From positions 1 through 61,480 of the forward strand of contig JACMPK010000180.1 in NCBI GenBank assembly GCA_014377535.1: a DNA stretch of 61,480 nucleotides, in the 5' to 3' direction. Both the position numbers and the translations under genes were made by a program. Below the pieces are notes generated by a model, which saw nothing but the letters and a program-made list of their open reading frames with translations, was not told the DNA's origin and searched no databases. This DNA is from Gemmatimonadaceae bacterium. GTDB taxonomy: Bacteria > Gemmatimonadota > Gemmatimonadetes > Gemmatimonadales > Gemmatimonadaceae. Shown in pieces: positions 50,804 through 58,651 of this stretch (position 1 is its first letter; the number at the start of each line of letters is the position of its first letter).

Positions 50804-52006
50804 TCAGGTGACCACGGGTCGGCTCGCGGCGAACGCTTCCCACGACCGGGTCGCAAGGATGTCATCGAGGACGGCAACGGCCGCCTCGAGCTCCCCGTCG
50901 GTCGTGTAGAAGTGCGGCGCCACGCGGATGCCTGCACCGGGACGGTAATCGATCACAATGTCTCGCGAGAGGAGGGCCTGCGCCACGGCTGGCCCGTGCG
51001 GGACGTCGAATGCGACGGTGCCACCGCGACGGGCCGCGTCGCGCGGCGCATGCACGGAGAAGCCCCGCTCGTCGGCAAGGGCGATCAGGCGCGTGGTCTG
51101 GCGCTGGCTCTTGGCCCGGACAGCCTCCATGCCGGCCTCCGTGATGATGGCCGGACCGTCCAGCGCGGCGTAGAGCGCCGGCACGGTCGGCGTGCCGCCG
51201 AGCCAGCGCCAGGCGCCGTCAGCGGGCTCCAGCACCGGCTCGAAGGCGAAGGGACGCTTGTGCGCCTGCCACCCGGTGAGCGCCGGCCGCAGCAGCGCCG
51301 ACTGCTCCGGTGACACCCAGAGGAAACAGCCCCCGGGACCGCCGCAGAGCCACTTCAGCACGCCGCCCATGTAAAAATCAGCGCCCAGTGTGCCGACGTC
51401 CACGGGAATCACGCCAACCGCGTGATATGCGTCCAGCACCACCAGCGCGCCGACGGCATGCGCCTTCGCGATGATCGGCGCCACGTCCATGATGTACGCC
51501 GACTTGAAGAGCACGTGGCTGATCGCGACGAGCGTCGTGCGCGACGTGATCGCGTCCACCACGCGCTGCGCATCGATGGAGATATTGTCGTCCGTGGGCA
51601 CGACGGTCACCCGCGCGCCAAGCTTCGGTGCCAGTTCATCCGTCACGTAACGCACGCTCGGGAAGTCAAGCGCCGTCATCACGATCTCGTCGCGATCTGC
51701 GGTGAACGTGAGCGCGGACAAAATCATCGCCTGCGCCTGCGAAACGGTCGGCACCATGGACACGGATCCAGCCGGCGCACCCATGAGCGGCGCCACGATG
51801 TTGCCGACCTCGATGGGCAGCTGCCACCAACGCGCCGCCCACGCCTTCACACCCAGCGTGTTCCACGACTCGGCATACTCGGCGAGGCGATCAGCCGTGC
51901 TGGCCGGCATCGCGCCAAGGGAGTTGCTGACGAGATAGGTGCTGGTCTCGAGGATGGGAAAGCGGGCGCGAAAACGGAGCAGCGGATCGTGCGGTGCGGT
52001 GCTCAT
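50804..52006 (-). CDS. class V aminotransferase-fold PLP enzyme
   Basis: A 400-residue pyridoxal-phosphate enzyme of the class V (kynureninase/cysteine desulfurase) superfamily. Seen: YLVSNSLGAMP near residue 25, the PLP Asp in VVLDAYHAVG (about 195), and the Schiff-base Lys in MGGVLKWLCGGPGG (about 220). The SNSLG opening and WWQLPIEVGN resemble kynureninase-like proteins, but no companion tryptophan-degradation gene is near, so the substrate is left open. The ATG overlaps the stop of the permease gene upstream (ATGA), so a transporter and a PLP enzyme are made together. Confidence 0.82.
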   Translation of the reverse strand: MSTAPHDPLLRFRARFPILETSTYLVSNSLGAMPASTADRLAEYAESWNTLGVKAWAARWWQLPIEVGNIVAPLMGAPAGSVSMVPTVSQAQAMILSALTFTADRDEIVMTALDFPSVRYVTDELAPKLGARVTVVPTDDNISIDAQRVVDAITSRTTLVAISHVLFKSAYIMDVAPIIAKAHAVGALVVLDAYHAVGVIPVDVGTLGADFYMGGVLKWLCGGPGGCFLWVSPEQSALLRPALTGWQAHKRPFAFEPVLEPADGAWRWLGGTPTVPALYAALDGPAIITEAGMEAVRAKSQRQTTRLIALADERGFSVHAPRDAARRGGTVAFDVPHGPAVAQALLSRDIVIDYRPGAGIRVAPHFYTTDGELEAAVAVLDDILATRSWEAFAASRPVVT

Positions 52007-53322
52007 GCAGAAACCGTCATTGGAGTCAGTGTACGTCGGGCAATCACGAAGATCAGCGAGGCGACGACGAGTGTCGCGCCGAGCACCGTCCATTCCGCAA
52101 CGGTGATGGAGGTGAGCAACCACCCGATGAGCAGCACGGTGACGATCGGAATCACCGGTCCGCCCGGCACGGAAAACGGCACCGCTCCCTCCTGGCGGAC
52201 TCCCCGCTGGCGCAGCATCAGTGTGGCCATGGCGCACGCCGCGTACAACAGCAGGGCCGCGAGGTTCGAGATCACGGCGAGCTGCTCGAACGAGTTGAAG
52301 ATGGCGAGCAGGCCGACGAACGTAGTCTGCACCACGATGGCGACATGCGGCGTACGGTATGTGCCGTGGATGGCACCGATCGCACGAGGCAGCAGGCCAT
52401 CCTGCGCGAATTTCCAGAGCGCACGCGGCACGGCGAGCGTCATGCCGCTCACATACCCGAGCATCGAGATCGACGCGCCGACCAGCAGCAGCAGGCGGCC
52501 CGGACTTCCCATGAACTGCTCGGCCGCGAAGGCCAGCGGCGCCGTGGGCACGGTGGCGAGGCGATCACCGAGCAGGCCTGCCGCGACGAGATGCACTGCG
52601 AGGTACAGCACAGTGACGCCGATCATCGCAATCGCGAGGGCGCGCGGCACGGTGCGCGCGGGATCCTTCACCTCGCCGCTCGGCACGAGCGCGCTCTCGC
52701 ATCCGCTGAAGGCGAAGATCAGGATGATGGCCGCGCGTGCCAGGCTCGATGGTGCCGGCATCTGCTCGACGGCCAGGTTGGCCGGCACGATGAAGAACAC
52801 ACCGATGCCGACGAACAGCAGCAGCGGCAGCAGCTTCGCGATGCTGAGCACCACGATCAGCCGTGTGCCCTGCTTCACGCCGCGGATGTTGATCAGCGCG
52901 AGGCCGACGAACGTGGCGACGATGAGGGGCGTACGAATCGCCGGCACGCCGAGCAGCGTGCCAATTCCCTCTGCGAACGCGGAGGACACACCGGCGACAG
53001 CCGTGGTGCCGAGCATCCAGAGCAGTACGCCGGAGAGAAAGCCGACGTAGCGCCCGAAGACCGCCTCGACATACGCATAGGGTCCGCCAGTCAGCGGCAC
53101 GCGGCTGCCGGCTTCGGCAAAGCAGAGCACCACGCACCCCATCACGGCAGCGCAAATCAGGTAGACAAATGGCGCCGCCGTGCCCGCAGCTGCCGCGGCC
53201 CCGGACGGCAACCGGAATATTCCGCCGCCGACCGTGACGTTGAAGATGCTGGCGGCGAGGCCGAAGACGCCGACGGCACGCACCAGCCCCGGTGTGGATG
53301 AGGTCGAGCGTGGAGTGTTCAC
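52003..53322 (-). CDS. APC-superfamily amino acid permease
   Basis: A 439-residue, 12-TM transporter starting at GTG. TM1 has the substrate-binding unwound motif NVTVGGGIFRLPSG (about residues 29-42); CFAEAGSRVPLTGGPYAYVE and SGEVKDPARTVPRALAIAM are typical of the family. Paralogous to the permease at 12357, with the same landmarks. It is co-translated with the class V PLP enzyme, so its substrate may be that enzyme's amino acid (inference). The region upstream of the GTG contains GATCTT 6-7 nt away, similar to a leaderless -10. Confidence 0.88.
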   Translation of the reverse strand: MNTPRSTSSTPGLVRAVGVFGLAASIFNVTVGGGIFRLPSGAAAAAGTAAPFVYLICAAVMGCVVLCFAEAGSRVPLTGGPYAYVEAVFGRYVGFLSGVLLWMLGTTAVAGVSSAFAEGIGTLLGVPAIRTPLIVATFVGLALINIRGVKQGTRLIVVLSIAKLLPLLLFVGIGVFFIVPANLAVEQMPAPSSLARAAIILIFAFSGCESALVPSGEVKDPARTVPRALAIAMIGVTVLYLAVHLVAAGLLGDRLATVPTAPLAFAAEQFMGSPGRLLLLVGASISMLGYVSGMTLAVPRALWKFAQDGLLPRAIGAIHGTYRTPHVAIVVQTTFVGLLAIFNSFEQLAVISNLAALLLYAACAMATLMLRQRGVRQEGAVPFSVPGGPVIPIVTVLLIGWLLTSITVAEWTVLGATLVVASLIFVIARRTLTPMTVSA

Positions 53323-53498: not shown

Positions 53499-54614
53499 AT
53501 GAACGGCCTTGATGGCATGAACGGCGACAAGCCACGGATCGGACTCGTGCTGGGCGGCGGCGGCCTGAAGGGGTTCGCGCACCTCGGCGTGCTCGAGGTG
53601 CTGGTTCACGCGGGGATCACCCCGGTGCTCATGGCGGGATCGAGCATCGGGGCGCTGATCGCGAGCGCGCATATGCTGGGCACCCCGCTGCAGCTGATGC
53701 GTGAGCGGGCGCTTGGACTCCGGCGCAAGGACCTGTTCCGCGTGAATGCGTCCGGCTTTGCGCGAGGCCTGCTGCGCAGCCCGAGCTTCTACTACGCCGA
53801 GCCGCTGCAGGCGCTGATCGCGAATGTGATTCCCGATCGTCGCTTCGATCAGCTGCCGAAGCCGCTGCTGGTGAACACGGTGGGCCTGGAGCGGGGAATG
53901 CAGGTGATGTGGGGTGCTCCCGGATTTCGGCACGCTTCCATCCGCGACGCCGTGTACGCGTCGTGTGCGCTGCCTGGCTTCTTCCCGCCGGGCGTTGTCG
54001 GTGGGCGGGTCTGCATCGATGGCGGCACAGTGGACAACATGCCGGTGTCTGCCGCCGCCGAGGGGCTGGACCTGGTCATTGCCGTGGACGTGGGCAACAG
54101 CGAAATCGAGAATGCGACCGATGTGAGCCAGGAAGGCATCGCGTCGATCTTCATGCGCTCGGCGACCTTGATGATGCGCACGTTGCAGCGCGCGCCGCTG
54201 CAGCAGTGGAATGGGCCACCGCTGGTGCTGATCCGTCCGCATGTCAGCCGGTTCAACTGGTTCGACTTCACTGCGATCCCGACGATGTTGAAGGCCGGCG
54301 TCGATGCGGCGACGGACGTGCTCGACGCGATTCCGCAGGCGCTGCGCGCCGGCAAGGGAATCTTTCCCAGGCAGCAGGTACGTGTGCACGTGTCGCGCGA
54401 CCAGTGCACGGGCTGCGGCCAGTGCACTGCGATGGCGCCGCACGCAATGGTGCGCGGCGTGGATGGCAAGGCGGTGCCTCGTCAGGCGCAGTTCGACTGG
54501 TCGCCGATAGACAGCGATTTCAGCGTACACTGTCCTACTGGCGCGATCGGGCTGGAGCGACGGGCGATTTCCGCGCGCCGGCCGGACGAAGAATCGAGCG
54601 AACGGGTGGCGTGA
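53499..54614 (+). CDS. patatin-like phospholipase fused to a C-terminal [4Fe-4S] ferredoxin domain
   Basis: A 371-residue fusion. Residues about 12-280 are a patatin domain: oxyanion loop GGGGLKG (19-25), nucleophile elbow GSSIG with Ser49, and the dyad Asp in CIDGGTVDN (D174). Residues about 295-360 form a monocluster ferredoxin: C303, C306, C309 in CTGCGQC and a later C345 in VHCPTGAIGLE, with intervening acidic/beta segments. All four ligands and the GAI motif are there, so the cluster is plausible. The fusion is unusual: lipid hydrolysis joined to an electron carrier. The ATG at 53499 was chosen; 53517 and 53448 are alternatives. It is divergent from the permease. Confidence 0.85.
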   Translation: MNGLDGMNGDKPRIGLVLGGGGLKGFAHLGVLEVLVHAGITPVLMAGSSIGALIASAHMLGTPLQLMRERALGLRRKDLFRVNASGFARGLLRSPSFYYAEPLQALIANVIPDRRFDQLPKPLLVNTVGLERGMQVMWGAPGFRHASIRDAVYASCALPGFFPPGVVGGRVCIDGGTVDNMPVSAAAEGLDLVIAVDVGNSEIENATDVSQEGIASIFMRSATLMMRTLQRAPLQQWNGPPLVLIRPHVSRFNWFDFTAIPTMLKAGVDAATDVLDAIPQALRAGKGIFPRQQVRVHVSRDQCTGCGQCTAMAPHAMVRGVDGKAVPRQAQFDWSPIDSDFSVHCPTGAIGLERRAISARRPDEESSERVA

Positions 54615-55782: not shown

Positions 55783-55888
55783 GCAGGCAGCCTGTCGGCC
55801 CGGCCCTGGTGCCTGACGTTCGACAGTGGCTCCATCAATCACTCCGCTCTCGCTCCGCGGGAGCCCCGGTTCCGGAGATTGTCGGACC

Positions 55889-58651
55889 ATGTCCCATCCA
55901 AATTCCTTTGGTGCACTCACGTCACTCGACGTCGGCGGCATCTCGTACTCCATCTTCCGCCTCGATGCTGTCGCGGGAGTGCCAGGTGCACAGGTCGATC
56001 GCCTGCCGATCTCGCTGCGCGTGCTGCTGGAAAACCTGCTGCGCTGCGAGGATGGCGCCTTCGTGAAGAAGAGCGACATCGCGGCGCTTGCGGTGTGGGA
56101 TGTCACCGGCGCGATCCAGCGTGATATCAGCTTCATGCCGGCCCGCGTGCTGCTGCAGGACTTCACGGGCGTGCCATGCGTGGTGGATCTGGCGGCGATG
56201 CGCGATGCGCTGAAGGCGCTGGGCGGCGACCCGAACCGCATCAATCCGCTGCAGCCCGTCGACCTGGTGATCGACCACTCGGTGCAGGTTGACGAGTTCG
56301 GAACGGCCGACGCGTTCCGGGCCAACGTCGCGCTGGAATTCGAGCGAAATACCGAGCGTTACCAATTCCTGCGCTGGGGCCAGACGGCGCTGAAGAACTT
56401 CCGTGCCGTGCCGCCGGGCACGGGCATCTGCCATCAGGTGAATCTGGAGTATCTGGGCCAGACGGTGTTCTCGCGCACGGATGATGACGGCTCGACGCAC
56501 GCGTACTTCGATTCGCTGGTCGGCACTGACAGCCACACGACCATGATCAACGGCCTCGGTGTGTTTGGCTGGGGTGTTGGCGGCATCGAAGCCGAAGCCG
56601 CCATGCTGGGCCAGCCGCTGTCGATGCTGATTCCGGATGTGATCGGATTCAAGCTTTCCGGCAAGCTGCCAGTCGGTGCGACGGCGACCGACCTGGTGCT
56701 GACCGTGACCGAGATGCTCCGCCAGAAGAAGGTCGTGGGCAAGTTCGTGGAGTTCTATGGCGCCGGCCTGAGCAACCTGTCGCTCGCCGACCGTGCGACG
56801 ATCGCGAACATGGCGCCGGAATACGGCGCGACGATGGGATTCTTTCCCGTCGATGCGGAAACGCTGGCGTACCTGCGACTCAGCGGCCGCAGCGAGCAGC
56901 AGGTTGCGCTGGTCGAGGCCTATTCGAAGGCGCAAGGCACCTTCCGCACCGATGAATCGCCGGACCCGGTCTTCACGGACACGATGTCGCTCGACATCTC
57001 GACCGTCGTGCCGTCGATGGCTGGTCCGCGTCGTCCGCAGGATCGTATCCCGCTCACGGAGTCGAAGGCGAATTACCGCCTGAACCTTGCCGAGACGCTG
57101 ACGGCGATGGGTGCGCAAGCTGCGAAGACGCCATCCGCGACGGCAACGGCCGTGATGGAAAACGAGGGCGGACCGGCAGACAGTACGCAGAGCGGCGTGA
57201 TGGTCCACTTCAAGGGCGAGAGCTTCAAGCTCACACACGGTGCGGTCGTGATCGCAGCGATCACCAGCTGCACCAATACCAGCAACCCGAGCGTGATGCT
57301 TGCCGCCGGGATGCTGGCGCGCAGTGCGGTGAAGCTGGGCCTGCGTGCGCAACCGTGGGTGAAGACGTCGCTGGCGCCGGGCTCGAAGGTGGTCACTGAG
57401 TACTTCAGGAAGAGTGGCGTGGACAAGTACCTCGACCAGCTCGGCTTCCAGACGGTGGGCTACGGCTGCACGACCTGCATCGGCAACAGCGGTCCGCTGC
57501 CGGAGGCAATCAGCGCGGCGATCGACAGCGGCAAGCTGGTGGTGACGGCGGTACTGAGCGGCAATCGCAACTTCGAGGGTCGCGTCAATCCGCAGACGCG
57601 CTTCAACTATCTCGCCAGCCCGCCGCTGGTGGTGGCGTACGCACTCGCGGGCCGCATGGACATTGACTTCGCCACCGAGCCGCTGGGCATCGGCGATCGC
57701 GGGCCGGTATATCTCAAGGACATCTGGCCATCGCTGCCGGACGTGGAACGCGAGGTGCTCGCGAGCGTGAAGCGCGAGCAGTTCGAGAAGGAGTACAGCG
57801 CCGTGTTCGAGGGCGACCAGCAGTGGCGTGACCTGCCGACGCCTGTGGGCGAGACGTACACGTGGGACGAGAACAGCACGTACGTGGCGCTGCCGCCGTA
57901 CTTCGCCGGCATGACGATGACACCCCCGGGCATCACGCCCATCACGGGGGCCAGAGTGCTGGGCATGTTCGGCGACAGCATCACGACCGACCACATCTCG
58001 CCGGCCGGCAACATCGCGGCATCGTCGCCAGCCGGTGTGTATCTGCAGTCGCGTGGCGTGGAGCGGAACGATTTCAACTCGTACGGTGCGCGTCGTGGCC
58101 ACCACGAGGTGATGATGCGCGGCACGTTTGCCAACATCCGCCTGAAGAACGAGCTGGTGGGTGGCAAGGAAGGGTGGTGGACGGCCACGGCGCCGGGCGC
58201 CGAGCCGGAAACCATTTTCGATGTCGCGATGCGCCTGCAGGGTCAGGGCACGGCAATGGTGATCATCGCCGGCAAGGAGTACGGCACGGGTTCGAGCCGC
58301 GACTGGGCCGCCAAGGGCACCCGCCTGCTGGGCATCCGGGGCGTGATTGCCGAGAGCTTCGAACGCATCCACCGCAGCAACCTGGTGGGCATGGGTGTGC
58401 TACCGATGGAGTTCGTGAACAACGAGAGCCGTCGGACGCTGGGCCTGACAGGATTTGAAATCATCGATGTCGAGGGCGTGGACGACACCCTGCAACCGCA
58501 CGCCGTGCTGAAGGCCACGGCGACGGGATCGGATGGAAGCGTGAAGACGTTCGACATCCGAGCACGGATCGACACCCCGGAAGAGCTGCAGTATTTCCGT
58601 AATGGCGGCATCCTGCCGTACGTGCTGCGGAACCTGGCACGAGGGGTGTAG
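55889..58651 (+). CDS. acnA: aconitate hydratase AcnA
   Basis: [4Fe-4S] enzyme of the TCA cycle that isomerises citrate and isocitrate. It has 920 residues, normal for the AcnA/IRP type. Cluster cysteines are in ITSCTNTSNPS (C461) and GCTTCIGNSGP (about C527 and C530). Other landmarks are VDSLVGTDSHTTMI-type sequence (DSLVGTDSHTTM), GVGGIEAEAAMLGQP, the C-terminal-domain start SITTDHISPAG and GSSRDWAAKG with the catalytic Ser. GGAG is 11 nt before the ATG at 55889. A terminator hairpin follows the stop. Confidence 0.97.
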   Translation: MSHPNSFGALTSLDVGGISYSIFRLDAVAGVPGAQVDRLPISLRVLLENLLRCEDGAFVKKSDIAALAVWDVTGAIQRDISFMPARVLLQDFTGVPCVVDLAAMRDALKALGGDPNRINPLQPVDLVIDHSVQVDEFGTADAFRANVALEFERNTERYQFLRWGQTALKNFRAVPPGTGICHQVNLEYLGQTVFSRTDDDGSTHAYFDSLVGTDSHTTMINGLGVFGWGVGGIEAEAAMLGQPLSMLIPDVIGFKLSGKLPVGATATDLVLTVTEMLRQKKVVGKFVEFYGAGLSNLSLADRATIANMAPEYGATMGFFPVDAETLAYLRLSGRSEQQVALVEAYSKAQGTFRTDESPDPVFTDTMSLDISTVVPSMAGPRRPQDRIPLTESKANYRLNLAETLTAMGAQAAKTPSATATAVMENEGGPADSTQSGVMVHFKGESFKLTHGAVVIAAITSCTNTSNPSVMLAAGMLARSAVKLGLRAQPWVKTSLAPGSKVVTEYFRKSGVDKYLDQLGFQTVGYGCTTCIGNSGPLPEAISAAIDSGKLVVTAVLSGNRNFEGRVNPQTRFNYLASPPLVVAYALAGRMDIDFATEPLGIGDRGPVYLKDIWPSLPDVEREVLASVKREQFEKEYSAVFEGDQQWRDLPTPVGETYTWDENSTYVALPPYFAGMTMTPPGITPITGARVLGMFGDSITTDHISPAGNIAASSPAGVYLQSRGVERNDFNSYGARRGHHEVMMRGTFANIRLKNELVGGKEGWWTATAPGAEPETIFDVAMRLQGQGTAMVIIAGKEYGTGSSRDWAAKGTRLLGIRGVIAESFERIHRSNLVGMGVLPMEFVNNESRRTLGLTGFEIIDVEGVDDTLQPHAVLKATATGSDGSVKTFDIRARIDTPEELQYFRNGGILPYVLRNLARGV

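Follow-up and report, generated by a model that had tools for sequence, protein, structure and literature searches.

Conserved cysteines of a patatin-ferredoxin fusion protein in Gemmatimonadales suggest a possible link between lipid breakdown and redox or iron-sulfur state

The window, a stretch of 61,480 nucleotides from a Gemmatimonadaceae bacterium (assembly GCA_014377535.1, contig JACMPK010000180.1), contains a gene whose translation (53499-54614, + strand) is one unbroken frame joining a patatin domain to a ferredoxin domain. The features of the gene and of its context are the following, f1 being one of the families that carry the fusion.

53499..54614, + strand: patatin-ferredoxin fusion gene, complete; 371 amino acids plus stop, with full-length orthologues across the order
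53544..54356, + strand: patatin hydrolase domain, about residues 16-286; Pfam and PlpD matches, invariant S49 and D174
53637..53651, + strand: nucleophile elbow GSSIG, residues 47-51; G47, S49 and G51 invariant
54018..54026, + strand: predicted catalytic DGG, residues 174-176; D174 and G175 invariant
54357..54371, + strand: conserved linker GIFPR, residues 287-291; G287 in 38/41 and P290 in 41/41 fusion proteins
54381..54557, + strand: predicted [4Fe-4S] ferredoxin domain, about residues 295-353; sequence, profile and model matches
54405..54425, + strand: cluster motif C303-x2-C306-x2-C309; conserved in 101/101 fusion proteins
54531..54536, + strand: fourth ligand C345 with P346; invariant
50804..52237, - strand: kynureninase-like class-V PLP enzyme, upstream neighbour (context); conserved
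55826..58651, + strand: aconitase AcnA, downstream neighbour (context); same strand in 69/90 f1 loci

The motifs of the protein are GGGG-L-K24-G (containing the oxyanion motif GGGxKG, residues 20-25), G47-S-S49-I-G51, D174-G-G, C303-x2-C306-x2-C309 and C345-P-T-G-A-I, and the residue numbering of the original prediction was exact on re-translation. On one side the gene is flanked by an amino-acid permease and the kynureninase-like gene, both on the - strand and the latter with its true start probably near 52000; on the other side are an M20 peptidase (- strand) and the aconitase AcnA (+ strand). Given that the + strand protein is conserved throughout the order, the 391-amino-acid ORF lying over the fusion gene on the opposite strand is most likely a shadow frame due to high GC. 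A scan of the fusion locus for promoters and terminators found none.

The N-terminal part matches the Pfam family Patatin (PF01734) over residues 16-186 (3.2e-30) and carries the GxSxG serine and the DG[GA] aspartate of the Ser-Asp dyad, the GGGxKG motif and the fold of that family. The C-terminal part belongs to Fer4_15 (PF13459), with the CxxCxxC...CP ligands, a ferredoxin fold and a score above the curated cut-off of 22.4 bits, being 24.1 bits for the whole protein and 28.1 bits for the ferredoxin domain alone. In the PDB (phmmer) the Thermotoga ferredoxin 1vjw/1rof matches residues 295-353 (i-E 2.4e-7) with the four ligand cysteines aligned. The CxxGCxxC nucleotide motif by itself proves nothing, as 0.61 chance matches are expected per window; the case for the fusion is carried by profile, fold and conservation.

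The best match in sequence and fold is PlpD (5fya/5fqu, PF01734; 3.5e-30 in phmmer against the PDB), which shares the patatin fold and the GxSxG, DG[GA] and GGGxKG motifs. In PlpD, a secreted autotransporter, the patatin is followed by POTRA and barrel, whereas the fusion protein has a ferredoxin in that place and stops at residue 371, past the ferredoxin and with neither POTRA nor beta-barrel, so that the identification as a type V autotransporter was rejected. The best NCBIfam match is RssA (PRK10279), a stand-alone bacterial patatin without a ferredoxin domain; this identity was also rejected (80.7 against a cut-off of 272 bits). The CBASS patatin effectors CapV and CapE (9jeh, 9iom), found as structure matches, resemble the fusion in that a regulatory element is added to the patatin core, but the CBASS_lipase score (47 against a cut-off of 200 bits) is far too low, and a CBASS phospholipase effector was discarded on that score; no CD-NTase was present among the identified neighbours of the gene. 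The Thermotoga ferredoxin shares CxxCxxC...CP, fold and about 59 residues with the fused domain, and differs in being free-standing rather than joined to a hydrolase and in having extra non-ligand cysteines that the fusion lacks. No report on a patatin-ferredoxin fusion or on a Gemmatimonadota patatin was found among the open-access papers searched, although the architecture may already be present in automatic domain databases. The two families are known; their combination is a new domain variant, which is conserved and under selection.

An AlphaFold2 model, built with 32 orthologues as alignment, has both domains at high confidence (pLDDT 91.1, pTM 0.88), which drops below 50 only over the 14 C-terminal residues. 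In Foldseek the N-terminal part falls on the CBASS lipases, on plant patatin and on PlpD, the latter with TMt up to 0.85. As for a possible failure of the model to assemble the four cysteines, its C-terminal part has a ferredoxin fold: it superposes on 1vjw over 59 columns (rmsd 1.4, TMt 0.88) and also matches Pyrococcus and other single-cluster ferredoxins. By sequence and structure the best relatives of this domain are the electron-transfer ferredoxins 1vjw, 1siz and 4ov1.

Residues S49, D174, C303, C306, C309, C345 and P346 are invariant in 41 fusion proteins, and S49 and D174 also in the 13 non-fusion proteins compared. The GxSxG elbow (G47-S-S49-I-G51) is kept in all 41 fusion proteins, as is D174-G175, which continues as DGG in f1 and DGA in families f2 and f3. 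In a larger set of 101 fusion proteins, among which 99 different ferredoxin regions occur, all four cluster cysteines are kept in every protein. This set came from loci found through patatin-side patterns or whole-protein hits and not through the cysteines; it was biased by ranking towards full-length matches, and in a few cases two of its loci are one genome present in two collections. Only P290, the four cysteines, P346 and A349 are fully invariant in the ferredoxin region, the non-cysteine positions averaging 61%, which indicates that selection acts on cluster binding. Orthologues lacking the cysteines were a possible objection; no one-by-one loss was seen among the 101, and the one case of absence involves the whole domain (G290, below). 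Sequence, model and conservation thus back the claim of a catalytically intact patatin fused to a monocluster ferredoxin. A fifth cysteine, C156 in the patatin domain (ASCALPG, 53964-53966), is present in 41/41 fusion proteins and in 4/13 ferredoxin-less relatives.

By record titles the fusion clade comprises Gemmatimonadota (Gemmatimonadaceae, Gemmatimonas and Roseisolibacter), and the fusion appears confined to a single order, named from those titles as Gemmatimonadales. The 295 genomes searched in the class yielded full-length fusions in 58/75 genomes of f1 and in 40/51 of f2 plus f3 (counted by hand from the search listing), and in families outside the order only the patatin part was matched. 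A profile search with the alignment against 395 genomes of the phylum agreed with this, and no fusion was found outside the three families. The best 80 hits of a genome contig scan (alignment query) are all fusion proteins, almost all titled Gemmatimonadota, and plasmid records gave two weak patatin matches and no fusion. Near relatives were searched for a donor of the ferredoxin domain or for another copy of it, and only the fusion itself and one weak match appeared. In the patatin-domain tree the fusion proteins form one side of a branch (99/96), with one change; the fusion arose once and was then retained across three families of one order.

Candidates for a cysteine-less orthologue were discarded in G286 (contig end), G324 (copy split across two contigs), G269 (fragment starting at a contig edge, ferredoxin intact) and G209 and G387 (frameshifted, ferredoxin in another frame). 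The exception is G290 (locus L216, f2), where the patatin ends cleanly before the ferredoxin domain, an apparent loss of the whole domain. The fusion gene is absent from about a fifth of the genomes, including several well-sequenced f1 genomes, and is therefore dispensable. Three f1 genomes of genus g5 (loci L182, L184 and L185) are without the fusion and have a patatin that groups on a long branch with the SUF-linked patatins of f8, possibly a replacement by transfer or a long-branch effect. One record titled Candidatus Kuenenia stuttgartiensis (L110) has a Gemmatimonadaceae-like locus with identical gene order, and its title or binning is probably wrong.

The sister families present a second arrangement. 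In 30 of 32 loci examined outside the order, a patatin lacking the ferredoxin is head-to-head with sufC-sufB-sufD-Rieske-sufS (f5, f7 and f8; 12/13 plus 18/19; L051, L052, L054-L062, L065 and L197-L214, some cut by contig ends), the exceptions being one f5 and one f10 locus. This patatin is the nearest homologue of the fusion by mean identity (35%, against 32% for the second, unfused patatin that f2 holds besides the fusion) and has identical catalytic residues; it differs in having no ferredoxin domain and in being divergent from the sufCBD-Rieske-sufS operon. An AU test on which patatin, the fusion or the unfused one of f2, is the orthologue of the SUF-linked patatin did not reject the alternatives (p 0.13 and 0.44). 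In the window's own genome the SUF cluster (L194) is at a different place, accompanied by a SufR-like regulator but by no patatin. No open-access paper was found on a patatin with a suf operon. Beside the fusion, AcnA, a [4Fe-4S] enzyme, is nearby on the same strand in 69/90 f1 loci, within about 400 bases in 42, and no conserved redox enzyme or electron-transfer partner gene was found in the neighbourhoods compared across loci. The conserved neighbourhoods point weakly to iron-sulfur metabolism.

The fusion protein is best explained as a patatin-type acyl hydrolase (phospholipase or lysophospholipase), probably cytoplasmic. Serine hydrolases of the patatin family work without a redox cofactor, and a cluster site kept so strictly on one of them has to be explained, whether by regulation, by electron transfer or by structure. 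The best hypothesis, although a tentative one, is that the cluster gates the lipase. The protein would bind one [4Fe-4S] cluster with a regulatory role and would act as a hydrolase on a lipid substrate; oxidation, reduction or loss of the cluster (O2, NO, peroxide or iron shortage) would cause a shift in the attached domain or in the oligomer, which would alter membrane docking or access to the active site, and lipid turnover would in this way be linked to redox or iron-sulfur status. The invariance of Ser49/Asp174 and the four cysteines together in one polypeptide counts for regulation, as do the confident two-domain model, the single origin with later retention, and the SUF and AcnA neighbourhoods; with no redox partner encoded nearby an intramolecular role is favoured. 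Against regulation count the ferredoxin motif, which is of the ordinary electron-transfer type and not a labile three-cysteine sensor, the patatin of G290 standing without the domain, the genomes lacking the gene, and the AU alternatives on the SUF-linked patatin. A gating cluster would link membrane lipid turnover post-translationally to oxygen, iron or cluster supply, and a small protein with a confident model suits clear spectroscopic and activity tests.

Regulation is placed ahead of a structural cluster, and this ahead of electron transfer. The structural explanation, rather doubtful, holds that the cluster staples the C-terminal extension and stabilises the fold, a dimer or a membrane-binding face with no redox role. 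Iron-sulfur clusters are commonly structural, the domain is confidently placed, the linker is conserved and a partner gene is missing, all of which agree with it; on the other hand, its motif is that of redox-active ferredoxins, and the whole-domain loss in G290 together with the ferredoxin-less homologues suggests that the patatin core folds alone. As an electron-transfer module, an unlikely reading, the domain would take electrons from an unlinked reductase or pass them to a partner bound via the patatin part, with the hydrolase as membrane anchor or substrate provider. The nature of its best relatives argues for this, but the neighbourhood holds no conserved redox partner, hydrolase chemistry requires no electrons and the catalytic residues remain invariant. 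Chance cysteines on an ordinary patatin, a decayed domain or an assembly fusion of two genes would fit the expected frequency of CxxGCxxC; such an artefact is extremely improbable and is refuted by the conservation data, the same architecture, its cysteines invariant, recurring in genomes that are independent and belong to three families. The profile, fold and structure matches also speak against it.

Less probable than electron transfer is a membership of this patatin lineage in iron-sulfur metabolism, where it would work beside SUF (for example in membrane or lipid repair upon cluster failure, or in cluster carriage) and the fused domain would carry or read the cluster supply. The SUF-linked patatins and the AcnA gene downstream of the fusion agree with such a role, whereas the AU alternatives, the patatin-free SUF cluster of the window's genome and the chance that adjacency is only inherited gene order weaken it. 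The SUF and AcnA neighbourhoods give circumstantial support to an iron-sulfur tie. Gating by the cluster could be extended to a class of iron-sulfur-gated lipases, in which the Gemmatimonadales domain would read redox or cluster supply and switch phospholipid hydrolysis, the wider patatin lineage being a membrane arm of SUF and iron-sulfur homeostasis; this extension is speculative and itself rather doubtful. The patatin head-to-head with the SUF operon offers a second route for testing the iron-sulfur link.

Class-V PLP genes recur beside these patatins. The kynureninase-like gene was identified in 44 of the 65 f1 loci with enough upstream sequence, and in f2 and f3 a different class-V PLP gene is head-to-head with the fusion in 9/10 loci. 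Three different enzymes of this class, about 30% identical, adjoin the patatin: the kynureninase-like one in f1, an unassigned one in f2 and f3 (L041-L050) and SufS in the sister families (as in L051).
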